NCBI GenBank assembly: GCA_017882285.1
Contig: JADGPS010000032.1
Coordinates: forward strand, 1 to 35,754
Direction of reading: 5' to 3'
Length of the DNA: 35,754 bases
Source: Paludibacter sp.
GTDB lineage: Bacteria > Bacteroidota > Bacteroidia > Bacteroidales > Paludibacteraceae
Below are positions 3,738-16,959 of the stretch, piece by piece. Position numbers and translations under genes: made by a program. The first letter of the stretch is position 1. Every line of letters begins with the position of its first letter. Below the pieces are notes generated by a model that did no database searches, had not been told where the DNA came from, and saw nothing but the letters and a program-made list of their open reading frames with translations.

Positions 3738-4796
3738 TTAACCAGAAATATATTTTCCTAACGGAATTTTCCGCAACACAAAAATAATCCCAAAAGAGCA
3801 AACAAGCACTATGAATGTCAGTAATGGTAATGAAAGTAACGGATGTGCAAATTTCCAGTAAATGCCTTTATCGAATAAAAAGCTGATAACCAGTATGTGC
3901 ACCAGATAAATGCCATAGCTATAATTGCTTATATTGGTTTGAATCAGTGAAATGGGTTTGTTTTTAATTGAAGAATCTTTTATCCACATAAAAATCGCAA
4001 TCGACTGAATAATCGTATTTATCGACAAATAACTATACATGCTTAAGTCGAGCTTATGTGCTTTTTGACTAAAAAAATAAGTCGAAACTGCCGAGACTAA
4101 AACACTTAATATAAAAACTGCTGCTGCCGAAATTCTAATTCTACCAGAATAAACTGGTAATTTGCTCAGGTAAAAACCCAACACCAAAAAACCGGAATAT
4201 AAAAAGAAACCCAACAATTTACTTCCATAATTACCTGACCAACCGTACATATTGAGCGGAACAGATTTAAACGTAAAAGTAAGTACAACCCACAATAACA
4301 AGATATTAGAAATTGCAGACCTGTTTAATTTACGTAACCCTTTCCCCAGAAACGGTACAAAAAGATATATAAACAAAATCATGTAAACGTACCAGAAATG
4401 TTTGGAAATGCCCTCTTTCAGAAATAAGCCGGTTGCCCAATTCCAGATTGCCGAAAAATCATGTGGTTGCACTTTGGGTGCAAGCGTCGTCCATCTGTAA
4501 GCCCAATAAACTACCATCCAAAACAGAAAAGGAACCAACACACGTGAAAATCTTCTTTTGTAAAAATCGCTCAATTTGTATTCTTTTCCCAGCAAAGTGG
4601 CACCGCTCATCATTAAAAATAACGGAACTGAAAACCGCACAGCACTATCTACCATATTCCCAATCCACCAATACGGCATATTTTTGCCGTAAGTCATATT
4701 AACTAACGGGGAGGAAATATGAATGATTATTACACCCAGCAAAGCTAAAGCACGAAGGGAATCAAGCCATTGAATATTAGTTGTTTTTGAATCCAT
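3738..4796 (-). CDS. acyltransferase family 3 membrane protein
   Basis: Integral membrane O-acyltransferase (Acyl_transf_3/OafA-like). The N-terminus has the family motif WLDSLRALALLGVIIIH, with R15 and H26 at the conserved positions, followed by about ten hydrophobic segments in 352 residues. Members acetylate or succinylate polysaccharides, lipids or peptidoglycan; the substrate here cannot be told. It lacks the extra SGNH domain of larger members. It starts 7 bases after the ispD stop and ends 6 bases before recG. Its start is preceded by an 8-bp tandem repeat that also encodes the ispD C-terminus. IspD and recG neighbours give no hint of substrate. Confidence 0.88.
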   Translation of the reverse strand: MDSKTTNIQWLDSLRALALLGVIIIHISSPLVNMTYGKNMPYWWIGNMVDSAVRFSVPLFLMMSGATLLGKEYKLSDFYKRRFSRVLVPFLFWMVVYWAYRWTTLAPKVQPHDFSAIWNWATGLFLKEGISKHFWYVYMILFIYLFVPFLGKGLRKLNRSAISNILLLWVVLTFTFKSVPLNMYGWSGNYGSKLLGFFLYSGFLVLGFYLSKLPVYSGRIRISAAAVFILSVLVSAVSTYFFSQKAHKLDLSMYSYLSINTIIQSIAIFMWIKDSSIKNKPISLIQTNISNYSYGIYLVHILVISFLFDKGIYWKFAHPLLSLPLLTFIVLVCSFGIIFVLRKIPLGKYISG

Positions 4797-5675: not shown

Positions 5676-6155
5676 ATGAGAAGAAAATTTTATCCTATTA
5701 TTGTAGTTTTATTGCTGATTGGCTGGCAATTACAGGCACAGAAAAATCAGGATTCGAAAAAAAACAATATATTTGAAGTTCTTTCTACCCCTGACTCTGT
5801 TACTCACGCCACAGTTAGAATTCATCAGGATAAACGAATTGAAACCTTGTTGGCAAACAAAAAATTTACGAATCAAACAACCACAAATGGTTTTCGTGTG
5901 CAGGTTTTTTCGAGTAATGTGCAGCAAACTGCTAAAAACAAAGCTTTTAATATTGAAAAACAGATTCAGGAAGCATTCCCTGATCTGCTTGTATATGTAA
6001 ATTATACTTCACCTTTCTGGAAAGTGCGGGTAGGTGATTTTAAATCAAAATCTGAAGCACAAGTTTTTAAGAGTCAATTAATTGATTCTTTCCCGATCAT
6101 GAAAAGTGAGATTTATATTGTCCCTGAACAAATTGTTATTTCTTCCCTAAAATAA
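5676..6155 (+). CDS. exported SPOR-domain protein
   Basis: Signal peptide [22 protein letters not shown] (residues 1-22), a short polar linker, then a SPOR-like domain at about 72-153 (GFRVQVFSS through [22 protein letters not shown]). SPOR domains bind denuded glycan strands of peptidoglycan, often at division sites. No enzyme domain is present, so this is a small periplasmic binding protein whose exact role is unknown. The folE start follows its stop by 4 bases, so the two are likely cotranscribed, a link that seems accidental in function. Confidence 0.85.
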
Positions 6156-6159
6156 ATGT

Positions 6160-6759
6160 ATGATGGACTTTAATATAAATCAACCAGTTCAGTTCGATGC
6201 TGAAAAAACTGCCAAAATTGCTGAACATTACCATCAGATAATTGAACTTTTAGGTGAAAATGTAAATCGTGAAGGATTGCTTAAAACGCCTGAACGAGTT
6301 TCAAAAGCCATGCAATTTTTGATGCAAGGATACGAACAAAATCCAGAGGAAGTTATCAAATCGGCCATGTTTACCGAGAATTATCGTCAAATGGTGATCG
6401 TGAAAGATATTGATTTTTATTCTATATGCGAACATCACATGTTACCATTTTTTGGCAAAGCGCACGTGGCATATATTCCTAACAAACAAATCACGGGATT
6501 GAGTAAAATTGCCCGCATTGTTGAAGTTTTTGCCCGCCGTATGCAAGTTCAGGAACGCATGACAACGCAAATCAAGGAATGTATTCAGAAAACATTAAAC
6601 CCAATGGGCGTAATGGTTATTATTGAGGCTCAGCATCTTTGCATGCAAATGCGTGGCGTGCAAAAACAACATTCCATTACTACTACTTCCGACTTTACAG
6701 GCGTTTTTGAACAAGCAAAAACTCGGGAAGAATTTATGAATCTAATAAATAGAAAATAG
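6160..6759 (+). CDS. folE: GTP cyclohydrolase I
   Basis: Converts GTP to 7,8-dihydroneopterin triphosphate, the first step of folate (and tetrahydropterin or queuosine) synthesis. The zinc and active-site residues are present: C90 and H92/H93 in [21 protein letters not shown], then H159 and C161 in [33 protein letters not shown] is the typical helix. Length 199 aa is normal. Two adjacent ATGs (6160, 6163) are possible starts. It is canonical type IA, with all three zinc ligands. Confidence 0.97.
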
Positions 6760-6764
6760 TTTAT

Positions 6765-6792
6765 TGTAGCTGTTTTCTACAGATTTTTCTGA
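6765..6792 (+). terminator. weak hairpin after folE, overlapping the convergent gene end
   Basis: TGTAG (6765-6769) and CTACA (6777-6781) pair around a 7-base loop and are followed by GATTTTTCT. It may end folE transcription but also covers the stop codon of the convergent four-cysteine gene. The second copy of that gene (about 11112-11130) keeps most of this sequence but the stem is broken. Confidence 0.35.
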
Positions 6793-7121
6793 ACCAGTTC
6801 ATCAGCGATGCGAACATATTCGGCGCATGTGAATTGTTTTTCTTTAATGTCGGAACATAAAACTCCACCTGCTTTTTTGTAGAACTCTCCAACCACAGAC
6901 TTTTTCCCAATCTGACGAAGTAAGTGCTCTGCAGCAAATAAAGCACCGCAAACACCGCCTTCGGCACGTCCGCCACCCCATGCCCGGAATTCTTCAATTT
7001 CCTGATCGGTAATATCAAACTCCTTTTGAAATCCTTTCAGAATAGCTTGAGAGCAGTTTAATTTTTCAGGTAAAACATGAAAATATTCTTCTGATTTGAT
7101 TCTTTTATTTACTTCTTTCAT
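6777..7121 (-). CDS. C_GCAxxG_C_C-type putative redox protein (copy A)
   Basis: Small soluble protein of about 114 residues with four cysteines in the spacing of the C_GCAxxG_C_C family (probable redox or metal-binding proteins of unknown function): LNCSQA, GGVCGALFAA, VLCSDI and FTCAEY. The central motif is VCGALFAA, so the last glycine of the usual motif is alanine. The start is uncertain. ATG codons at 7136, 7124 and 7121 are in frame; I take 7121, which reduces overlap with the upstream glycosyltransferase (ending at 7105). It is 82% identical over 106 residues to the gene at 11121-11453. Both copies sit at the 3' side of glycosyltransferase genes with overlapping ends, which suggests translation with the cluster. 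Function unknown. Confidence 0.8.
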   Translation of the reverse strand: MKEVNKRIKSEEYFHVLPEKLNCSQAILKGFQKEFDITDQEIEEFRAWGGGRAEGGVCGALFAAEHLLRQIGKKSVVGEFYKKAGGVLCSDIKEKQFTCAEYVRIADELVQKNL

Positions 7122-8067
7122 CATTTTTAATTTCAAAATTTTCTTTTTTCCTGATTATATATTCAGGTCTGTTTTTTATTTCGTCAAAAAGATTTCCTAT
7201 ATAAGCACCAACAATGCCGATAGTTAACAACTGAACTCCACCAAAAAATATAATCAAGACGAATAATGAAGTCCAACCTGAATCAGCGTGAGTATATCCA
7301 ATAATTTTACCGAGTATAGACCAAATTGCTAAACCCAAAGCAATAACGACAGATATAAATCCTAAAGTGGTAGCCACTCTCAGCGGTTTCGTGGAAAAGT
7401 AAAGCAAAGAAGTAGTGGCGAGTTTCAGCATTTTTGCAAAAGGATATTTAGTTTCGCCGGCAAAACGCGCTTCACGTTCATAATAAAATGGAACTTGCTT
7501 AAATCCAACCCACGAAATTAGTCCACGAATATATTTCCCCTTTTCGTTTAACTTATTAAACTCATCGATTATTGTTCTGTCAATCAATCTGAAATCACCG
7601 GTATCGACGGGAAGCCGGACTTCAGAGAAAAAATTAAGCGTTCGGTAAAAAAGTTTGGCTGATATTTTCTTGAAAATTCCTTCTCCTTTGCGGGTTTTTC
7701 GGACACAATACACAACTTGGGCATTCGATTTTTCGAGCGTTTCAATCATTTCAGGTATCAACTCAGGTGGATCTTGTAAATCGGCATCGATAATTAAAGC
7801 CATGTCCGAAGAACAATTGTTGAGACCAGCAGTTACGGCTTTTTGGTGACCGAAGTTTCGTGAGAATGATATTATTTTCACTGTTTTGTCCGACTTCAAA
7901 AAACCCGTTAAAATGGATTCGGTGTTATCGGTACTGCCATCATTAATGAAAATAATCTCAGACTTCAACTGCAAAGTTGATAAAACTAATTGGAGTCTTC
8001 TGTACGATTCCACAATAACCTCTTCTTCGTTAAAACATGGGACAATTACGCTCAGTGATTTATTCAT
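7105..8067 (-). CDS. GT2 polyprenyl-phosphate sugar transferase (GtrB/DPM1-like)
   Basis: Family 2 glycosyltransferase of 320 residues that probably moves a sugar from a nucleotide sugar to undecaprenyl phosphate on the inner face of the membrane. Seen: SVIVPCFNEE (6-15), NDGSTDNTE (42-50), SRNFGHQKAVTAGL (69-82), the metal-binding DADLQDPPE (94-102), and two hydrophobic hairpin segments near 230-290 followed by the ExIKNRPEYII tail typical of GtrB/DPM1/YkcC proteins. Its start overlaps the GtrA-like gene by four bases (8064-8067), and GtrA-GtrB pairs are known from O-antigen glucosylation. The sugar cannot be predicted. Confidence 0.92.
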   Translation of the reverse strand: MNKSLSVIVPCFNEEEVIVESYRRLQLVLSTLQLKSEIIFINDGSTDNTESILTGFLKSDKTVKIISFSRNFGHQKAVTAGLNNCSSDMALIIDADLQDPPELIPEMIETLEKSNAQVVYCVRKTRKGEGIFKKISAKLFYRTLNFFSEVRLPVDTGDFRLIDRTIIDEFNKLNEKGKYIRGLISWVGFKQVPFYYEREARFAGETKYPFAKMLKLATTSLLYFSTKPLRVATTLGFISVVIALGLAIWSILGKIIGYTHADSGWTSLFVLIIFFGGVQLLTIGIVGAYIGNLFDEIKNRPEYIIRKKENFEIKNDERSK

Positions 8068-8459
8068 TGAATATCAGATTTGAAGGTGTAATATTTATTT
8101 AGCCAAAAATTGAAAATCGTGTAAACTGCAATTGATAACAGTTGACAAACAAATGAATCAAGAGTTGTAAAATGAAGCAGCAGATACAGGTTACCCAATT
8201 GAATCAGATAACAAATTGCAAATGTAATAATAAATCTAAGAATCGTGTCTGTCACTTTCATATTACTCGCAAAAGTCCATTTCCTATTCCATATAAAACT
8301 GTTTATCAGGCCAATAATGTAACCAATAATGTTCGAAACATAGTCGGAAAAATGCAAAATCTGTAGTAAAAACCAGATTGTAAGTGCAGTCAGAAGCGTG
8401 TTAGACACGCCAACAACACCAAATTTGACAAACTGGATTAATGATTTTTTATTTTTCAT
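8064..8459 (-). CDS. GtrA-like small membrane protein (putative lipid-linked sugar flippase)
   Basis: About 131 residues with four hydrophobic segments, opening LIQFVKFGVVGVSNTLLTALTIWFLL-like and ending FNFWLNKYYTFKSD, both marks of the GtrA/PF04138 family. GtrA proteins are thought to move undecaprenyl-phosphate sugars across the membrane. The ATG at 8459 (MKNKKSLIQF) is chosen over 8498 because the longer form adds 13 residues not seen in the family and overlaps the upstream gene more. With the chosen start the overlap with the upstream GT-C gene is 11 bases; it overlaps the downstream GT2 start by 4 bases. This gives a compact GT-C/GtrA/GtrB-like unit. Confidence 0.9.
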   Translation of the reverse strand: MKNKKSLIQFVKFGVVGVSNTLLTALTIWFLLQILHFSDYVSNIIGYIIGLINSFIWNRKWTFASNMKVTDTILRFIITFAICYLIQLGNLYLLLHFTTLDSFVCQLLSIAVYTIFNFWLNKYYTFKSDIQ

Positions 8460-9927
8460 GTTTTGGAAATGTTGAAACAAAAATACGTTCATAAACAATG
8501 ATTTTTACAAAACCTTCTTCAAAGCGTTTAATTGGCATCCATTTACTTTTGTCGTTTAATTCTTCAGCAAAATTATCTTCAAGGTTAGAAATGTTGGAGT
8601 AAATAAAATATTTTCGGTTTGTGTCAGAATTTACTGTTTTTGAGTTTTCTGACAATTCTATAAACTTACGATTTCCATAAAGACAGAATCCGGCTGATAA
8701 GTCGTTGTAACTGATGTTCTTCTCATCTATATATTTAAAACACTGATTACGAAGTTTATAATAAGGCAAATGAGCCAGTGTACAATCCCACGATTTTGCA
8801 ATTTTATCAGGATAAATCCAAAAATTTCCGGTAATTTCAAAGAAAATGATTAAAATAAAAGCATATTTCAAAGTTTGTTTCTTCAAAAAAGTAGCCATCC
8901 CCGAGGTTGCTAAAATAGTAAGGATAAAAAACTGAGGCATAAAATACCGGGCTGAAAAAGGCATTTGTGTGATGAAGATGAAGAGTGTGTATAAGCCTGT
9001 TAGTAAGACAAATACAGCTAAAAGAAATTTCTTTTCATCAGAAAGTTTTAATTTATTTTTCCACATAAAATAACCGAAAATTATTCCTGCCAGCCAAATG
9101 ATAATTCGTCCATTTTCAACAGATCTTAGTCCAAATTCAGAAAAATGTTTTGCTATTCTAAAAAAACTATTTGGCAAAGCATAATGTCCTTCTGTTGTAG
9201 AATTGACAAAAAACCAACCTCGGGTCAAAAAATAAAAAACAAAATAGACGGAAAGTATAACCAATGTAGGAAGATATGGAATCGTCATTCTGATATAATC
9301 TCGAATCTTTATTTTCTCTTTGGATTGTATGTTTTCAAAGTATAACTGGCTTATAAACAGAATTGTACAGGCAAATATTCCCCGCATATTGATGGAACAA
9401 AGAAAGAATATACCAATGGCAAGAAGTACATATTTGCGTTCAAGGATGGCTCGCAAAGAAAGAACAAAAGAGGTGAAAAGAATAAAATCGGGCGAAGCTA
9501 TACTAAATTGAGAAAGTAAAGTTGACTCTAATAACGAAATTGCTAAAATCCAACCGGCAATACCTGGATCAAAAAATCTGTAAATTAATTTCCAACTATT
9601 ATAAAGCAGAATTCCAAACCAAACAAGTACAAACACATGTGAAACCCAAAGTTTGTAACCAAACGCTTTCCACAAAGCGGCGGTTATAATTCCCATCAGT
9701 GGTGGATGATAACCGGTTGCAACAATTTCAGAGCCTGAATTTGGAGCCGGCATTAACAGCGATTTAAAATCCGTGAGATAAAACCAATGCGCTTCTTTGC
9801 TGATTTGTTGGATATTATCCCAAAAATAACAATGGTTGACTGAAACCAGCGTGAGAATAATGTAAACTAATGAAATTGGAATGATGAAAAACCAAAAATT
9901 CCTGTTTTCAGTTGATGGCAGATTCAT
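8449..9927 (-). CDS. GT39/GT83-like membrane glycosyltransferase
   Basis: Polytopic protein of 492 residues with about 10-11 hydrophobic helices. The first extracytoplasmic loop has an acidic residue after the first helix (FWDNIQQ, D37) and the second has GYHPPLMGI (H74-P-P), both typical of GT-C enzymes such as ArnT/PMT-like transferases that use polyprenyl-phosphate sugars. The C-terminal 110 residues form a soluble periplasmic domain. Acceptor unknown: lipid A, LPS core, O-antigen or protein. Its 3' end overlaps the GtrA-like gene and its 5' end overlaps the next GT-C gene by 20 bases. Confidence 0.82.
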   Translation of the reverse strand: MNLPSTENRNFWFFIIPISLVYIILTLVSVNHCYFWDNIQQISKEAHWFYLTDFKSLLMPAPNSGSEIVATGYHPPLMGIITAALWKAFGYKLWVSHVFVLVWFGILLYNSWKLIYRFFDPGIAGWILAISLLESTLLSQFSIASPDFILFTSFVLSLRAILERKYVLLAIGIFFLCSINMRGIFACTILFISQLYFENIQSKEKIKIRDYIRMTIPYLPTLVILSVYFVFYFLTRGWFFVNSTTEGHYALPNSFFRIAKHFSEFGLRSVENGRIIIWLAGIIFGYFMWKNKLKLSDEKKFLLAVFVLLTGLYTLFIFITQMPFSARYFMPQFFILTILATSGMATFLKKQTLKYAFILIIFFEITGNFWIYPDKIAKSWDCTLAHLPYYKLRNQCFKYIDEKNISYNDLSAGFCLYGNRKFIELSENSKTVNSDTNRKYFIYSNISNLEDNFAEELNDKSKWMPIKRFEEGFVKIIVYERIFVSTFPKHEK

Positions 9928-11044
9928 GTTTCAGACTTTTAATAAATTCGTCGGTTGTTAGAATTATAATCAGCAAATATACTGCAAAAGCAGGTGACAT
10001 AGGCAATATCTCGTTAAACCTGGAACACCGGATGTAGGAATAAAAAGAAATAAGAACAATTCCAATTGGTAAATGAATGTTTTTACGCAAAACCAAGAAA
10101 TACATAACGCCCATTATATCACCTAAATACAAATAACGCTCATGCATACCGGGTAACACAAAAGGAATTATAATTGCACTCAGAAAAGCCAATCGAATCC
10201 AATGTTCAAAAGAAAAATTGTATTTTTTGTTGCTTAATATCAGCCCAAAAACAAAAGTAATAATTGCAGTAAACAATATCCCGCCAAATTTTATAGGTTG
10301 ATACCATTCATTATTAAGCCAAATGTAGATATTCGGAAAATTTAGAGTTAGAAATGGATAACGGTTGGTTTGAGAAATGTAAACATTCAATAGATCAGAA
10401 AAAGTTCGTCCATAAAACCAGGTTGGCAGAATGCTAATGATAAAAATGATTGGAACTGCCAGAAAGTAATACCATCTGATTTTGCCCCGAAGCATAAGAA
10501 CCAAAAAAAGTGGAAGAATAAATGCGGTTTGCATTTTAAATGCAAAAGCTATTCCGAGAAAAAGAATTGACAGTAACTGTCTGTTTTTCAGGGCAAAATA
10601 AAAACTTATGATTGTAAAAGCTGCATATATAGAATCGCATTGCGATAAATAACTGCTATTGAGCAAAACCGAAGGCAGGAGTGGAACAACTGCCATGCAA
10701 ATCAAAATGTCCTTTTTGTTTTGAGTTTTTAAAACAACAATTTTTCCAATAAAAAACGCGGCAATATATTCAAAAATGATTGAAATTAGTTTGATAAAAA
10801 ATAGAGGATTCAGTCCGGTTTTGGCAATTAGAATCAGAATGTAAATATAAGCCGGAGTATAATCATAAAAATTAAATTTTAAAGATGAAAAATAACCATG
10901 CGACTTGATAAATGAAATCCATGGTTCAAGAAAACAAACATAATCTCCGGTTTTCACAGGCAGAAATATTGTTTTCAATATTAAGCCAACTATGATTAAT
11001 CCAGTCCAGATTAAATTATTTTTTTTTGTATAATAGTCCATCAA
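9908..11044 (-). CDS. membrane glycosyltransferase, GT-C type
   Basis: 378 residues, about ten hydrophobic helices, with acidic GDYVCFLEPW (D34) in the first periplasmic loop and NFYDYTPAYIYIL after it, a layout shared by GT-C mannosyl- or glucosyltransferases (ALG6/8- or GT87-like). SQCDSIYAAFTIISFYFALK and FKMQTAFILPLFL are also seen in that group. The specific family is not certain and no sugar or acceptor can be assigned. Its 3' end overlaps the next GT-C gene by 20 bases; its start lies 76 bases after the end of the second four-cysteine gene, so it may open the second half of the cluster. Confidence 0.75.
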   Translation of the reverse strand: MMDYYTKKNNLIWTGLIIVGLILKTIFLPVKTGDYVCFLEPWISFIKSHGYFSSLKFNFYDYTPAYIYILILIAKTGLNPLFFIKLISIIFEYIAAFFIGKIVVLKTQNKKDILICMAVVPLLPSVLLNSSYLSQCDSIYAAFTIISFYFALKNRQLLSILFLGIAFAFKMQTAFILPLFLVLMLRGKIRWYYFLAVPIIFIISILPTWFYGRTFSDLLNVYISQTNRYPFLTLNFPNIYIWLNNEWYQPIKFGGILFTAIITFVFGLILSNKKYNFSFEHWIRLAFLSAIIIPFVLPGMHERYLYLGDIMGVMYFLVLRKNIHLPIGIVLISFYSYIRCSRFNEILPMSPAFAVYLLIIILTTDEFIKSLKHESAIN

Positions 11045-11120: not shown

Positions 11121-11453
11121 CTATAGATTTTTCTGAATCAGTTCATCAGCCATACGAACGTATTCTGCGCAGGTGAACTGTTTTTCTTTTATGTCTGAGC
11201 ACAACAATCCCCCGGCTTTTTGCCGAAACTCTTCAACAACAGAATCTTTTCCGACCTGACGAAGCAATCTTTCTGCAGCAAACAAGGCACCGCAAACACC
11301 ATCTTTTGCACGTCCATCGCCCCAGGCACGGTATTCTTCAATTTCTGTATCAGAAATATTAAATTCCTTCTGAAAACCTTTCAAAACTGCTTGAGCACAA
11401 TTTAATTTCTCGGGAAGTATATGAAAATACTCTTCAGATTTTTTACGAGACAT
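11121..11453 (-). CDS. C_GCAxxG_C_C-type putative redox protein (copy B)
   Basis: About 110 residues, four cysteines: LNCAQA, DGVCGALFAA, LLCSDI, FTCAEY. It is 82% identical over 106 aligned residues (87 identical) to the copy at 6777-7121, and the match continues 9 bases past both stop codons (AGCTGTTTTCTA). That points to duplication of the whole gene rather than independent capture. Its start overlaps the end of the upstream GT-C gene by about 11-14 bases (two adjacent ATG codons, 11456 and 11453). Differences in copy B are mostly conservative, with more charged changes around the middle (GGGRAEGG to GDGRAKDG). Function unknown; a disulfide, iron-sulfur or metal role is only a guess from the cysteines. 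Confidence 0.8.
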   Translation of the reverse strand: MSRKKSEEYFHILPEKLNCAQAVLKGFQKEFNISDTEIEEYRAWGDGRAKDGVCGALFAAERLLRQVGKDSVVEEFRQKAGGLLCSDIKEKQFTCAEYVRMADELIQKNL

Positions 11454-12612
11454 CATTCTTTTTTTCGTTTTTATTCAGAGAATTGGAAATGAAACCCAAA
11501 CAATAGGGTAAAGCCAGAGTGAAATATGAAATGTCGTACAAGCTGTCTGTAAAAACGGTTCCTTGAATTCCCCTGGTATATATTAAACTCAACTGAGACA
11601 AAAGGACAAATACAAAAATAAATAAAGAAACAATCCAAAAAAACTGTTGCTCGTTTTTCCACTTGAAAGCTAACCATCCTCCAAATAAAATCAATAATAT
11701 CAGCAAATAAGGATTGCCAATACTGCTTTGTGACATAAATGGATTACGAGAAAAGAAAATCCAATTTGTTGTATCCCAAAAAATAAATGGCAAAAAAGTA
11801 AGCACTGCAATTCCAAAAACCGCCAATGAAAAACCTATTTTTTGTTTCCATGGAAGCTGTATGAATGGTTTGAAAAAGTACAACGCCAAAGGAAGAATGG
11901 CAGATAAACGGGTAGATGCAATAAGCCCACAAGCTATAGCAGCTAACCAAAAGTTTGTTGAAAGTGAATAATTCTTCTTTTGAAACCAAAGAATAAATAC
12001 AAAGACCAACAAAGCATTGCTGAGAGAATCACTTCTAACTGCAACTTCCCACCAATACGCCGGTGAAATGCAAAGCAACAGTAAAAAGAAAAATGATTTT
12101 CGGTATGATGGGAAAAAATATTGGATCGTTATTGCTGTAAGTAATAAAAAGAAAATCAAACCAATACCTACATCGCCCAGTAGATAAAATGGTATGTTGA
12201 GAATGTGCCAAACAGGAAAAGGTGAAGCAAAATTACTTTCGGATACATGTGTATGTGCTAAATAAGGATATTTCCCCTGAAATAAATTGTCTAAAAAGAA
12301 AGAAACTGCCGACCAACGATCTACACGAACTGAATATGGATCAATTTTAATTAACAACCCGATAATAATCAGTATCATTAAAATCAACAGTGACCAAAAG
12401 GCAATTTTAAATGTTTTTTCAGAAACTTTGTAAGAATAGAATTTGAAAATATAGACAGCAAAAAATAGAAATGTTGTGAAAAAAGCAAATATGATTGAGG
12501 AACTTGCTCCGACACGAGGAAAGTATTTAAATATAAACAATCCATTTATAAACAAATAAATTAATATTTGAATGAAATAGGATTTGTGAAATCGAGTCTT
12601 AAATACAATCAT
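11443..12612 (-). CDS. membrane glycosyltransferase, GT-C type (GT87-like)
   Basis: About 389 residues with 10-12 hydrophobic helices. After the third helix a loop carries DPYSVRVDRWSAVSFFLDN, then GKYPYLAHTH and PFPVWHILNIPFYLLGD, the GxxPY and acidic-loop layout of polyprenyl-phosphate-using GT-C enzymes. The start at 12612 is chosen because its ATG overlaps the stop of the upstream EamA-like gene (ATGA, bases 12609-12612). The longer frame from 12702 would translate 30 residues that are the other frame of that gene. Translational coupling GT2 - small flippase - GT-C follows. Sugar and acceptor unknown. Confidence 0.78.
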   Translation of the reverse strand: MIVFKTRFHKSYFIQILIYLFINGLFIFKYFPRVGASSSIIFAFFTTFLFFAVYIFKFYSYKVSEKTFKIAFWSLLILMILIIIGLLIKIDPYSVRVDRWSAVSFFLDNLFQGKYPYLAHTHVSESNFASPFPVWHILNIPFYLLGDVGIGLIFFLLLTAITIQYFFPSYRKSFFFLLLLCISPAYWWEVAVRSDSLSNALLVFVFILWFQKKNYSLSTNFWLAAIACGLIASTRLSAILPLALYFFKPFIQLPWKQKIGFSLAVFGIAVLTFLPFIFWDTTNWIFFSRNPFMSQSSIGNPYLLILLILFGGWLAFKWKNEQQFFWIVSLFIFVFVLLSQLSLIYTRGIQGTVFTDSLYDISYFTLALPYCLGFISNSLNKNEKKNDVS

Positions 12613-12932
12613 GCCATAATCAAATAAATAGAAGCAATGCCAAGTATTAACCCAACAATTTGTTTTGGTTGAATGCTTTCTCCAAACAAAAAAGCCCCAC
12701 ACAAAAATACCAATATCATTATAGCTATTGCCGAAGGAGGTGCAATTTTACTAAGCGGGAAAAGTCTTAAAACATAGAACTGAAGAAAAAATGCTATGCC
12801 ATACGTGGCTAAACTTATTAAAATAAAAACCAACCACTTTTTCCCATAAATGTCATTCAATGAAGCATTTTTCAATAATATTTGAGCCATCACAGCAGAA
12901 ATTACGCTTAAAATTGCTAAAAGATATTTCAT
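12609..12932 (-). CDS. EamA/SMR-type small transporter, ArnE-like (putative lipid-linked sugar flippase subunit)
   Basis: 107 residues with four hydrophobic helices and the SMR/EamA C-terminal pattern GESIQPKQIVGLILGIASIYLI. Helix 1 (LAILSVISAVMAQILLKNA) lacks the glutamate that small multidrug pumps of the EmrE type need, and has the AQxLLK pattern of ArnE-like proteins. Between a GT2 gene (overlap of 4 bases, 12929-12932) and a GT-C gene (4-base overlap), a role in flipping an undecaprenyl-phosphate sugar is the best inference. ArnE works with ArnF; no second half is visible here, so a homodimer would be needed. A simple drug pump is less likely. Confidence 0.78.
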   Translation of the reverse strand: MKYLLAILSVISAVMAQILLKNASLNDIYGKKWLVFILISLATYGIAFFLQFYVLRLFPLSKIAPPSAIAIMILVFLCGAFLFGESIQPKQIVGLILGIASIYLIMA

Positions 12933-13852
12933 TGTTTTTCAACGATATTAATTGTTTTATCGATAATATAGATGGGCCGCTTTTTCTGTTCATCAAACAA
13001 AAAACCAATATATTCTCCCAAAATTCCCAAAATAACAAACTGAATACTAAACATTATGCCAAGAAAAACAACTATAGTGGTATATCCCGAAACCGGATGT
13101 TCGATTATTTTCATTATCAAACTATAAATTGCCAATAAAATACTGAAAAACCCCGAAATTAACCCTAAATAAATACCTATTTTTAAGGGCAATTTGGATA
13201 AAGTCGCAACTGCGGAAATCGATAAAGATAAAAGTTTATGAAATGTATATTTACTTTTTCCTGCTTTCCGTTCATCAACGATATAAGTTAATGTAGTTTT
13301 ATTGAAACCTATTATTTGAATAAAACCTCTCAAAAACCGTACACGTTCGCGATAGTTTTCTTGTAAAATATGGCCAATTCGATCTGATATTAAAAAAAAG
13401 TCAGAAGCATTTGATTCAAAAGAATAAGGAGAAATAAGATTTAAAATTTTGTAAAACAGGTTAGATGCTTTATTTTTGTTTACTGATTTTCTTGCCATAT
13501 TGATAATGTCAACATCACCAATGATAAAACGTTCATACATTTTAGGTATTATAGTCGGAGGATGCTGTAAATCACTATCCATGCAAATTATAGCTTGTCC
13601 GGTTGCATAATCAATACCTGCAATCATGGCTGCTTCATGCCCAAAATTTCTTGAAAACTGAATTGATTTTATGTTGGAATTTTGAAATGATAATTCATCA
13701 ATAATTATTTGAGAATCATCAGTACTTCCATCGTTGACAAATATCAGTTCATAATCAAAATTGCAATTAATAAGAACTTCCATCAATTTATCGTAGAATA
13801 AATTCAAGACTTCCTTTTCGTTATAGACTGAAACTACAATGGATAATTTCAT
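12929..13852 (-). CDS. GT2 polyprenyl-phosphate sugar transferase (ArnC/GtrB-like)
   Basis: 307 residues from ATG 13852. Motifs: SIVVSVYNEKEV at the N-terminus, NDGSTDDSQ (40-48), SRNFGHEAAMIAGIDYATG, the DXD-like MDSDLQHPP (91-99), RFLRGFIQIIGF, and two C-terminal membrane helices followed by GEYIGFLFDEQKKRPIYII. Probable transfer of a sugar to undecaprenyl phosphate. It is a distant paralogue of the GT2 at 7105-8067. The longer frame up to 13960 adds 36 residues antiphase to porZ and is rejected. It begins 7 bases after the porZ stop (13860) and overlaps the next gene by 4 bases, so porZ and the sugar genes are likely on one mRNA. Confidence 0.92.
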   Translation of the reverse strand: MKLSIVVSVYNEKEVLNLFYDKLMEVLINCNFDYELIFVNDGSTDDSQIIIDELSFQNSNIKSIQFSRNFGHEAAMIAGIDYATGQAIICMDSDLQHPPTIIPKMYERFIIGDVDIINMARKSVNKNKASNLFYKILNLISPYSFESNASDFFLISDRIGHILQENYRERVRFLRGFIQIIGFNKTTLTYIVDERKAGKSKYTFHKLLSLSISAVATLSKLPLKIGIYLGLISGFFSILLAIYSLIMKIIEHPVSGYTTIVVFLGIMFSIQFVILGILGEYIGFLFDEQKKRPIYIIDKTINIVEKQ

Positions 13853-13859
13853 AATTAAA

Positions 13860-16226
13860 CTAATTAATAACCAGGATTTTAGTAATTGTACTTTGAGTTC
13901 CATCTGCACTTGCACAAATTGCCAGATAAATCCCGGTACTAACGCGTCGTCCATGTGCATCTTTGCCGTCCCAGGTGGCTAAGCTGCCATTCGAAACGGT
14001 TTCTGAAACTAAGTTACCATTAATATCTGTAATTTTCACCTGGGTATTTGCTAAAAGCCCGGTAATAGTGATAACGCCGTTATATCCTTGACGTACCGGA
14101 TTTGGATAAGCATACACATTGTTAAATGAACTTCCTGCTTCACTCGCATCACTTTGATAAGAAACAAGTCCTTGATCGGTTCCAAAAAAAACTTCTCCAG
14201 TCTGAGGATTTATTGCAATTGACAATATATTATTAGATAGTAATGGACTATTAGAAACAGTAAATTGTTGAATCGTTTGCTGCCCGTTTTCAGACATTAA
14301 ATAAACCCCTGATGATTTTGTTCCAATCCATTTCCGGTTGGCGCCATCAATAGCTATTGCCTGGATATTTTCATTTACAAGTAAATAATCAGCTAAATTT
14401 GTACTGTCATAGCGTGGTATCTTAACACGCGAACAGGTATAATCTGCATCATATACTTTTGATAAATTATTAAAAAGAAATGGTCCCATATCAGTTCCAA
14501 CCCAAACAACTCCATTTTTATCCTGAGCAATTGTAGAAACCGTATTGGGATAAATATTAATTAATTGTGTTTGACCATTGTTGTCAATTTCAGGATAAGT
14601 AAACGGGAATATAAAAACTGATTTATCGTCTGTTTGGTCTTTTATTGTTCCATTGTCATCAAATATAAAAATTCCGGGAGTAGAACGAACTGAGGGAATC
14701 CATTTTTGATTCGAATTTTGATTCGAAATCATGATCCTTCCTAAGGTTGGGAATAAAGGTTGGTTCATGTTTGGAAATGGATACATAAGTTTTGTCCAAG
14801 TGCCATCTGCCAAAAGTATTTTAATTCCAATAGCCTTTCCTTCTCTTATATTAATAAATAAAAGATTGCCGTTCTGGTCGTAAATTGCTCCATCTAATCG
14901 CATAAAATTATACGGATCATTAGAATCAACAGTTTCAATAGTGCTGCCACTTAAATAATTATGCCAAAAAAAGAATTCATTATTTTTGAATTCATATAAT
15001 CCTGTTCCGTATGATGTGACAAAAAAGTGTTTATCATCATTAGGATCTACAGCAACATTCATGAAATCCAAAACTGGATGACCCGTTTGACTTTTAATTG
15101 ATTGTGCCAGGATATTGGTCCAAACTCCATTTTCAAACATCATTACTACGCCTTCTCTCAGGTATTGAGCAGCGCCACGCCCTCCAGGAACTACAAATAA
15201 TTTTTGTCCGGCAAATGTCATATCCCATGGCATATTCACTGTGGGTCCTGCCGGTTTGAAGTAAGTTATTATTGGTGTTTCAGTACCGGTTTGTTTGTAA
15301 GAGATTACACCCAAAGCATTGCCGGCAAAATAATAAGTATTATTTTGAGAATCATATTCAGCATCGGTTATTGTACCTATATCACTTACGGTTTTACTAT
15401 TAAATTGATTATCGATTAGACAAACTGCATTGTTAGCAAAAACATGCATACTGCCATTGGAAACATTGAAGGTTGTTGCAGTAATATCCGACAAAAATGG
15501 TGTCCACAAATTATCGCTACCTTGTTTGTAAAGCTTTCCACCACGCAGCAAAATGAGTTGTCCGGCAAAAGAAGCTATTTTTTGGAAGTCTCCACTGCCT
15601 GGTAATCCGGTTGTAACAGACCAGAATTCAAAATTTACCAAATGAGTTTCAGATACTGATGCCTGAAAAATAGTAGATGTTGTTAAAGCGTAAATATTGC
15701 CATTATTAACTGTAGTATTCAGCACTTTAACTTCAGAAGCATTCGGACCGATATAATACGTATCAGCAACTTCTTTTTTTTGCATATTCAACACGACTAT
15801 ACCAAAATTACAAGATAAATAGGCTTTGTTTTGATAAAACTGGATATCATTTACATCCTTGCTTGAACTCATTTGTTTATTATACAAATCAGGAATATTG
15901 ATAACACCTCCGGTGCTCATTATGTCAATATTCCCATTTGAGTAAATTAATAGAAGCTCTTGATTTGCAGAATCATATTCAATACGCGAGATATTGGAGC
16001 CGTTCAGTCCACTTATTTTACTGTAAAACTCCATGCCTCCGTCTTGCTTGTCGATCGAAAATAGAGCACCTTCACTTACTGCGTAAATTTTATTAGCTGA
16101 TTGAGCAATTTGAGATACGTTATTATAGGCAAAATGCGTGCGCCATTTGCCCATTGCTACTTGTGCTATTGAAGTCAATGAGAAAAAGCTCGTTAAAACA
16201 GCTATGAAAAATATTCGTTTATTCAT
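13860..16226 (-). CDS. porZ: PorZ-like type IX secretion attachment-complex protein
   Basis: 788 residues: signal peptide (MNKRIFFIAVLTSFFSLTS...AQ), then MGKWRTHFAYNNVSQIAQSANKIYAVSEGALFSID and further repeats of a beta-propeller region, a second propeller-like part (IGTKSSGVYL, NNILSIAINPQTGEVFFGTDQGLVSY), and a C-terminal sorting domain (about 705-788) with YAYPNPV and the ending ATWDGKDAHGRRVSTGIYLA...ILVIN. This architecture and length match PorZ of Porphyromonas gingivalis (776 aa), which sits on the surface with PorU, PorV and PorQ and binds A-LPS, passing it to PorU for cargo anchoring (knowledge of the family). Residues I cannot align; assignment is by architecture. It ends 7 bases before the GT2 gene. 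No clear -7 box was found in the 157 bases upstream (16227-16383), where nothing else was seen. Confidence 0.88.
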   Translation of the reverse strand: MNKRIFFIAVLTSFFSLTSIAQVAMGKWRTHFAYNNVSQIAQSANKIYAVSEGALFSIDKQDGGMEFYSKISGLNGSNISRIEYDSANQELLLIYSNGNIDIMSTGGVINIPDLYNKQMSSSKDVNDIQFYQNKAYLSCNFGIVVLNMQKKEVADTYYIGPNASEVKVLNTTVNNGNIYALTTSTIFQASVSETHLVNFEFWSVTTGLPGSGDFQKIASFAGQLILLRGGKLYKQGSDNLWTPFLSDITATTFNVSNGSMHVFANNAVCLIDNQFNSKTVSDIGTITDAEYDSQNNTYYFAGNALGVISYKQTGTETPIITYFKPAGPTVNMPWDMTFAGQKLFVVPGGRGAAQYLREGVVMMFENGVWTNILAQSIKSQTGHPVLDFMNVAVDPNDDKHFFVTSYGTGLYEFKNNEFFFWHNYLSGSTIETVDSNDPYNFMRLDGAIYDQNGNLLFINIREGKAIGIKILLADGTWTKLMYPFPNMNQPLFPTLGRIMISNQNSNQKWIPSVRSTPGIFIFDDNGTIKDQTDDKSVFIFPFTYPEIDNNGQTQLINIYPNTVSTIAQDKNGVVWVGTDMGPFLFNNLSKVYDADYTCSRVKIPRYDSTNLADYLLVNENIQAIAIDGANRKWIGTKSSGVYLMSENGQQTIQQFTVSNSPLLSNNILSIAINPQTGEVFFGTDQGLVSYQSDASEAGSSFNNVYAYPNPVRQGYNGVITITGLLANTQVKITDINGNLVSETVSNGSLATWDGKDAHGRRVSTGIYLAICASADGTQSTITKILVIN

Positions 16227-16383: not shown

Positions 16384-16959
16384 TTAATGTTGCAAATAAG
16401 CAACCAGTTTTTTTACAGCTAAAGCTCTGTGGCTGATTTGATTTTTTTCCTCAGCACTAAGTTGGGCAAAACTTACCACATAACCGTCAGGTACAAAAAT
16501 CGGGTCATAACCAAATCCACTTTTTCCGCGAGGTTGGATTGTTATCGCCCCATCAATTCTTCCTTCAAAGAATTTTGTTTCTTCCCCTTGAATTAAGGTA
16601 ATAACCGTTCGAAAACAGGCTTTTCTGTTTTGAGAGTTACCCAACAGCTTCAGAACCTTACACATGTTATTGTATGAATTGTGATTGTCACCGGCATAGC
16701 GTGCCGAAAAAATACCCGGTTCTCCATCCAATGCTTCAACTTCCAATCCGGTGTCATCAGCAAAACAATCGATTCCAAATTTTGTGTGAATATAGTTCGC
16801 TTTCAAAAAAGCATTTTTTTCAAGTGTTTCACCCGTTTCGGGAATATCATCTTCACAATCTAAATCTGCTAAACTGATGATAGAAAACCCGGGTTCAAGT
16901 ATAGCTTTGACTTCCGCCAGTTTATGTGCGTTATTGGTAGCAAAAACCAATTTTTTCAT
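16384..16959 (-). CDS. rdgB: XTP/dITP pyrophosphatase (RdgB/HAM1)
   Basis: Cleans the nucleotide pool by hydrolysing dITP, ITP and XTP to monophosphates. 191 residues from ATG 16959. Family motifs in order: LVFATNNAHKLAEV, DDIPETGETLEKNA, CFADDTGLEVEALDGEPGIFSARYAG, RGKSGFGYDPIFVPDGY, SAEEKNQISHRALAVKKL. The longer frame from 16983 adds eight residues and would begin at the start of transcription predicted from the box at 16991-16998. porZ lies downstream, 157 bases away, with no obvious functional tie. Confidence 0.96.
   Translation of the reverse strand: MKKLVFATNNAHKLAEVKAILEPGFSIISLADLDCEDDIPETGETLEKNAFLKANYIHTKFGIDCFADDTGLEVEALDGEPGIFSARYAGDNHNSYNNMCKVLKLLGNSQNRKACFRTVITLIQGEETKFFEGRIDGAITIQPRGKSGFGYDPIFVPDGYVVSFAQLSAEEKNQISHRALAVKKLVAYLQH

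Follow-up and report, generated by a model that had tools for sequence, protein, structure and literature searches.

The window analysed here is a 35,754-nucleotide (nt) stretch of Paludibacter sp. (contig JADGPS010000032.1 of assembly GCA_017882285.1), from a genome of 3.18 Mb that is 98% complete. It carries porZ, a gene of the type IX secretion system (T9SS), at the head of a string of reverse-strand genes for glycan-modifying enzymes, occupying what we call the porZ slot (Table 1). The stop codon of porZ, at 13860, is 7 nt from the ATG at 13852 of GT2a, which encodes a family 2 glycosyltransferase (GT2). GT2a shares 4 nt (ATGA, 12932-12929) with the gene for a small membrane protein, and that gene in turn shares 4 nt (ATGA, 12612-12609) with GTC1, which encodes a glycosyltransferase of the GT-C fold. 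This order and spacing, given in a first-pass annotation of the window, proved exact on recheck. The operon outlined there ended at 11443, however, and while its genes down to that point stand, its end does not. GTC1 (11443-12612) shares 14 nt with a gene of the C_GCAxxG_C_C family, and past a 79-nt gap, the sole gap of more than about 10 nt in the string, there follow two GT-C-like genes, a GtrA gene, a second GT2 gene (to 7105) and a second C_GCAxxG_C_C gene. The string thus reaches 6777, ending 17 nt from the convergent folE. It is probably transcribed together. A Bacteroidota-type promoter consensus had 139 matches in the window versus 139 in shuffled sequences, with scans for sigma-70 promoters and terminators likewise uninformative. 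Besides the two members in this slot, the C_GCAxxG_C_C family was seen in the slots of genomes G140 and G144, alone in the latter.

Table 1. Features of the porZ slot and its boundaries (positions in the window; aa, amino acids)
Feature	Position	Strand	Evidence or remark
rdgB, conserved left neighbour of porZ	16384..16959	-	PF01725 2.7e-64; upstream of porZ in most loci examined
porZ, 788 aa	13860..16226	-	NF052228, PF21544, TIGR04183
GT2a, GtrB/ArnC-type polyprenyl-phosphate sugar synthase, 307 aa	12929..13852	-	PF00535 3e-28
Small membrane protein of EamA/EMR type, 107 aa, presumed to flip a lipid-linked sugar	12609..12932	-	PF00892 1.2e-8
GTC1, GT-C-fold glycosyltransferase, 389 aa	11443..12612	-	predicted fold
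C_GCAxxG_C_C family protein	11121..11456	-	PF09719 1.3e-8
GTC2, polytopic, GT-C-like (class inferred)	9908..11041	-	without Pfam match; recurs in porZ-folE slots of relatives
GTC3, polytopic, GT-C-like (class inferred)	8449..9927	-	without Pfam match; recurs in porZ-folE slots
GtrA-type membrane protein (flippase)	8064..8498	-	PF04138 1.5e-26
GT2b, second GtrB/ArnC-type GT2	7105..8067	-	PF00535 3.3e-33
Second C_GCAxxG_C_C protein, last gene of the slot	6777..7136	-	PF09719 8.8e-9
folE, convergent right boundary of the slot	6160..6759	+	PF01227 6.2e-76; same boundary in 21 relatives

The assignment of PorZ is firm, with 707 bits against the NCBIfam equivalog NF052228 (cut-off 260), an N-terminal propeller (PF21544, 1.5e-42) and a C-terminal T9SS signal (TIGR04183, 24.3 bits). 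The genome also has porV, an adjoining porU-like gene and about 70 matches to the type A C-terminal domain. Among the porZ genes of relatives, reading frames of about 1360 aa were seen at loci L265, L268, L276, L282 and L297 and in genomes G021, G070, G126 and G134; in these four genomes the additional stretch aligns with positions of about 280-670 of the PorZ profile, and the propeller may be duplicated. G151 carries two complete porZ-like genes in tandem (contig 20, 212649-217296).

GT2 enzymes of the GtrB/ArnC type load polyprenyl phosphate with a sugar, small EMR or GtrA proteins presumably flip the lipid-linked sugar, and GT-C enzymes use it at the periplasmic side. GT2a is homologous over its full length, C-terminal membrane part included, to the GtrB protein sll0501 (5ekp; phmmer 2.8e-53, residues 2-298), and matches ArnC (9hwj) over residues 2-302 (2.3e-35). 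Against the NCBIfam equivalogs it stays under the cut-offs for both ArnC (135.6 bits, cut-off 529) and PgfS (224.5 bits, cut-off 500); GT2b also stays under the PgfS cut-off, with 264 bits. The small membrane protein fits the ArnE/ArnF/EMR type by its EamA domain and its size, from which transport is predicted. An alignment places such a gene at the same position in five relatives, and a profile of the family found no match among Protein Data Bank (PDB) sequences. The downstream module joins GtrA, GT2b and the GT-C-like genes in one string, and in three relatives a GTC3-type gene stands directly after porZ.

GTC1 had no match in Pfam or NCBIfam at E 0.001, nor by sequence in the PDB. An AlphaFold2 model made from 57 relatives had a mean pLDDT of 91.9. 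Foldseek gave weak matches only, the best being ArnT (E 0.03), while VIA-align 2 returned Z scores of 17.6 for GPI mannosyltransferase I, 17.2 for ALG3, 16.1 for PIG-U, 15.9 for ArnT, 14.1 for Pmt4 and 13.7 for PimE. The 35 best structural rows (Z 7.7-17.6) are all GT-C enzymes, oligosaccharyltransferases or the GPI-transamidase subunit PIG-U; the aligned core covers residues 54-389 and is preceded by extra helices. GT-C enzymes carry a catalytic acid where the first periplasmic loop begins, after a long helix. In the model Asp98, a candidate for this acid in the motif VDRWSA, lies just past a long helix, and it is kept in at least 90% of the 57 sequences. On the strength of the model, GTC1 is a glycosyltransferase of the GT-C fold, from a family without a Pfam or NCBIfam model. 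The homology of GT2a to GtrB and ArnC, together with a fold shared with ArnT, GPI mannosyltransferase I and PimE, supports the first-pass view of the GT2, flippase and GT-C genes as a set for sugar addition at the periplasmic side.

The gene that follows porZ was compared across Bacteroidota. At E 0.001, porZ was found in 149 of the 150 genomes of Paludibacteraceae, in 153 of 159 drawn from across the order and in 184 of 238 from across the phylum (above the curated cut-off in 145, 140 and 145 genomes, respectively), and its flanks were examined in 205 genomes, gene classes being checked with Pfam on representatives. Outside Paludibacteraceae the commonest gene after porZ is recO (62 of 95 loci), which does not follow porZ within the family. 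Among the 107 Paludibacteraceae genomes with a readable neighbour, 42, from 15 of 33 genera, have a glycan-modifying membrane enzyme or a GT2 directly after porZ: acyltransferase-3 (AT3) in 14, GTC1 in eight, GT2a in six, an EptA-like enzyme in six, a PMT_2-type enzyme in three, a GTC3-like enzyme in three and another GT2 in two. A measured genome-wide rate exists for AT3; for the classes taken together, 42-43 of 107 would far exceed even a 5% background. As a control we used porV, the gene for another T9SS outer-membrane protein; none of 30 Paludibacteraceae genes 3' of porV, mostly ispF, fell in the glycan-enzyme classes. In the remaining Paludibacteraceae genomes porZ is followed by tsaE, by folE, by an argB-like gene or by an unrelated gene. 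The tsaE gene stands there in 10 genomes (loci L045, L050, L059 and L084 and six more).

In 21 Paludibacteraceae genomes the slot is bounded, as here, by porZ and folE. Seven of these slots are empty and 14 filled, 13 of the latter with a glycan gene, and the window is an additional filled case. The 14 filled slots hold 35 genes, 30 of them glycan genes by class; the other five are two methyltransferase-like genes, one radical SAM gene and two C_GCAxxG_C_C genes. The content shifts fast within one genus. In the rest of the phylum, the corresponding interval between porZ and recO is empty in 63 cases and filled in four, three of these by AT3. The first-pass annotation had named, as a finding that would count against it, a neighbourhood not conserved outside close relatives; this holds for the exact GT2a-EMR-GTC1 trio, present in Paludibacteraceae and a few relatives only, whereas both the GT-C gene and the class of slot gene are conserved more widely. 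At locus L033 a methyltransferase-like gene (5709-6440) is inserted in the trio, and similar genes occur at L073, L076 and L083.

OafA-type and EptA-type enzymes, like GT-C enzymes, act on envelope glycans at the periplasmic side. Over the 150 Paludibacteraceae genomes, the AT3 family (PF01757) averages 3.0 copies per genome, so that about 0.12 cases directly 3' of porZ were expected among the 107 genomes, against 14 observed, in 9 of 33 genera. In a genus of another order, one acyltransferase family has 9 copies in 150 genomes, 8 of them inside a porZ-AT3-recO arrangement. The porZ-linked acyltransferases cluster in a few lineages, separate from most others of the same genomes (6 label changes versus 16.8 in shuffles, with long-branch warnings). 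Beyond folE the window has another AT3 gene, at 3738-4796 between ispD and recG; several Paludibacter genomes have one at this place, and G130, G061 and G136 are without it.

GTC1, too, is linked to porZ. It occurs in 22 of the 150 Paludibacteraceae genomes, one copy each, and in 18 of the 22 it is found less than 6 kb from porZ, with 0.12 genomes expected; by genus the count is 10 of 12. Since the genomes are related, P values that treat them as independent overstate that independence, and the genus counts (9/33 for AT3 and 10/12 for GTC1) are the safer figures. In a set of 393 genomes from across the order, GTC1 occurs in 15 that do not belong to Paludibacteraceae, in five of them within 6 kb of porZ; in one other (G281) GTC1 lies by rdgB with porZ 80 kb off, and in one it lies by folE. 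A scan of GTDB r220 gave 68 named GTC1 loci, with porZ in the flank of 52 and mostly adjacent, and several of the 16 loci without porZ end at a contig edge. The porZ-linked named loci come from Paludibacter, Prevotella, Segatella, Hallella, Azobacteroides and Symbiothrix, and the named GTC1 sequences nearest to the one studied here are from Paludibacter sp. UBA6032 and UBA5753.

GTC1 takes four placements: 3' of porZ it is either co-directional or convergent, and on the 5' side it is either co-directional with rdgB-porZ or divergent. A tree of 80 GTC1 sequences requires 24 changes of arrangement (G602 was scored there as rdgB only, although porZ is in fact 3.7 kb away). That GTC1 keeps its place while its orientation changes is the pattern expected from selection for linkage. 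GTC1 also meets the other slot enzymes. For example, GTC1, rdgB, porZ and an EptA-like gene form one string in genus g14; in family f109 (9 genomes) GTC1 lies beside rdgB-porZ and an acyltransferase in three; and the Prevotella loci L284, L286 and L289 have the order porZ-AT3-GTC1 (checked with Pfam on L284).

In Porphyromonas gingivalis, PorZ is described as delivering A-type lipopolysaccharide (A-LPS) to the sortase PorU. The binding of A-LPS, which the first-pass annotation had taken from this picture, is documented there, as is an interaction of PorZ with PorU (PMC8545088). The word "anionic" used for that LPS needs more care: a 2026 mass-spectrometry study removed phosphomannan from the definition of A-LPS, leaving one branched linker saccharide on ordinary O-polysaccharide (PMC13086638). 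Attached to the P. gingivalis linker are an acyl-like C4H4O3 group and a branch pentose, neither with a separate enzyme assigned, and phosphoethanolamine is located on the O-polysaccharide and core (PMC13086638). The linking sugar differs among P. gingivalis, T. forsythia and P. intermedia, being partly methylated in the last (PMC11969387). The first-pass annotation knew of no description of a link between porZ and sugar genes, and we found none in the open literature on PorZ with acyltransferase, glycosyltransferase or gene neighbourhood.

From gene context, we think it probable that porZ stands at the head of a variable slot and that the genes there decorate, at the periplasmic side of the inner membrane, the LPS that PorZ presents to PorU; the slot enzymes would most likely tailor the LPS that PorZ and PorU use. 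In the window, GT2a would charge undecaprenyl phosphate with a sugar, the small EMR-type protein would serve as flippase for this lipid-linked sugar, and GTC1 would attach it to LPS as a branch or cap, while the module of GT2b, GtrA, GTC2 and GTC3 would attach another sugar. Because the slot of relatives holds AT3 or EptA-like genes instead, what is constant would be the decoration of envelope glycans rather than one particular sugar. The functional link with PorZ proposed in the first-pass annotation is strongly supported by gene context, and the linkage is wider than was supposed; that the enzymes act on LPS, and that PorZ or PorU recognises what they make, we infer. The three slot classes (sugar branch, acyl and phosphoethanolamine) may correspond to the three kinds of decoration reported for P. 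gingivalis (PMC13086638). A bolder proposal, possible although we would on balance doubt it, is that the slot is a changeable decoration code on the LPS linker, written in branch sugars, acyl groups and phosphoethanolamine and read by PorZ or PorU of the same strain before cargo is attached. Anchor chemistry and reader would then evolve as a linked pair, and type IX anchoring would have enzymes of its own in GTC1 and the porZ-linked acyltransferases.

The enzymes themselves belong to known kinds. What appears to be new is the porZ-linked GT-C family and the variable slot. As in the GtrA-GtrB-GtrC clusters for O-antigen glucosylation, a GT2, a small flippase and a polytopic transferase are encoded together, and the downstream module has a true GtrA. 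In contrast to those clusters, an EamA/EMR-type protein takes the place of GtrA in the first module, GTC1 belongs to another sequence family, and the set sits behind a T9SS gene. The ArnC-ArnE/F-ArnT system, which adds L-Ara4N to lipid A, is matched by an ArnC homologue (GT2a), an EMR-type protein and an ArnT-like fold (GTC1, Z 15.9). However, GT2a scores 136 bits against a 529-bit cut-off, there is one small protein rather than two, and the string is without Arn sugar genes. The Wbp/Vim pathway for the A-LPS linking sugar of P. gingivalis is alike in setting, since it serves the attachment of T9SS cargo to LPS, but it consists of cytoplasmic nucleotide-sugar enzymes and Wzy-type assembly, away from porZ, and none of these was seen in the slot. 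OafA-type acyltransferases (PF01757) and EptA-type transferases fill the same slot in relatives and are absent from that of the window.

Several observations weigh against a role in LPS presentation by PorZ. More than half of the Paludibacteraceae porZ genes have another gene or none in the slot, and most of the phylum has recO after porZ, from which it follows that PorZ as such can do without any slot gene. In P. gingivalis the known A-LPS genes are found away from porZ (PMC7323717). GTC1 overlaps rdgB at L327 (G281) and at L295 (Dysgonomonas alginatilytica) with porZ not adjacent, possibly as a relic of an older arrangement. The GTC1 profile was made from porZ-linked copies and so favours the recovery of such copies. 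The argument is one of gene context, and a gene neighbourhood can reflect a permissive site. Such a site, tolerant of inserts and giving steady expression, is what general O-antigen variation would call for: the slot genes would alter bulk LPS or capsule, with serotype conversion and avoidance of phage or immunity as the outcome. Gtr-like, OafA-like and EptA-like enzymes are general classes of serotype conversion, the fast turnover within one genus would fit, and so would the copies of GTC1 that lie by rdgB or folE without porZ. We nevertheless regard this explanation as unlikely, if the most serious competitor: GTC1 and the AT3a and AT3b lineages are largely limited to porZ loci while the other acyltransferases of the same genomes lie elsewhere, the link of GTC1 to porZ persists through changes of orientation and side, and nothing similar is found at porV.

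The GT2, flippase and GT-C set could also modify an O-glycan carried by PorZ or other envelope proteins instead of LPS. The GT-C fold covers protein O-mannosyltransferases, among them Pmt4, and Bacteroidota have a general O-glycosylation system acting at D(S/T)X motifs (PMC11969387). The best fold matches of GTC1, however, are transferases of lipid-linked glycans. The AT3 and EptA-like enzymes found in the same slot typically act on LPS or other polysaccharides, and we consider protein modification improbable. That the genes were inserted once behind porZ and inherited without functional meaning would account for the restriction of the exact trio to Paludibacteraceae and close kin. Against this are the several unrelated families that share the slot, the several orientations of GTC1 and, in another order, the acyltransferases inserted between porZ and recO, so that chance and shared descent, already disfavoured, seem very improbable.

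If the slot enzymes do tailor the LPS used by PorZ and PorU, the enzyme families beside porZ are named candidate genes for linker steps such as the addition of the acyl-like group and the branch pentose. Some close relatives have them and others do not, which offers natural comparisons between species. The sugar signal that fastens surface proteins in these bacteria would thereby become testable gene by gene.

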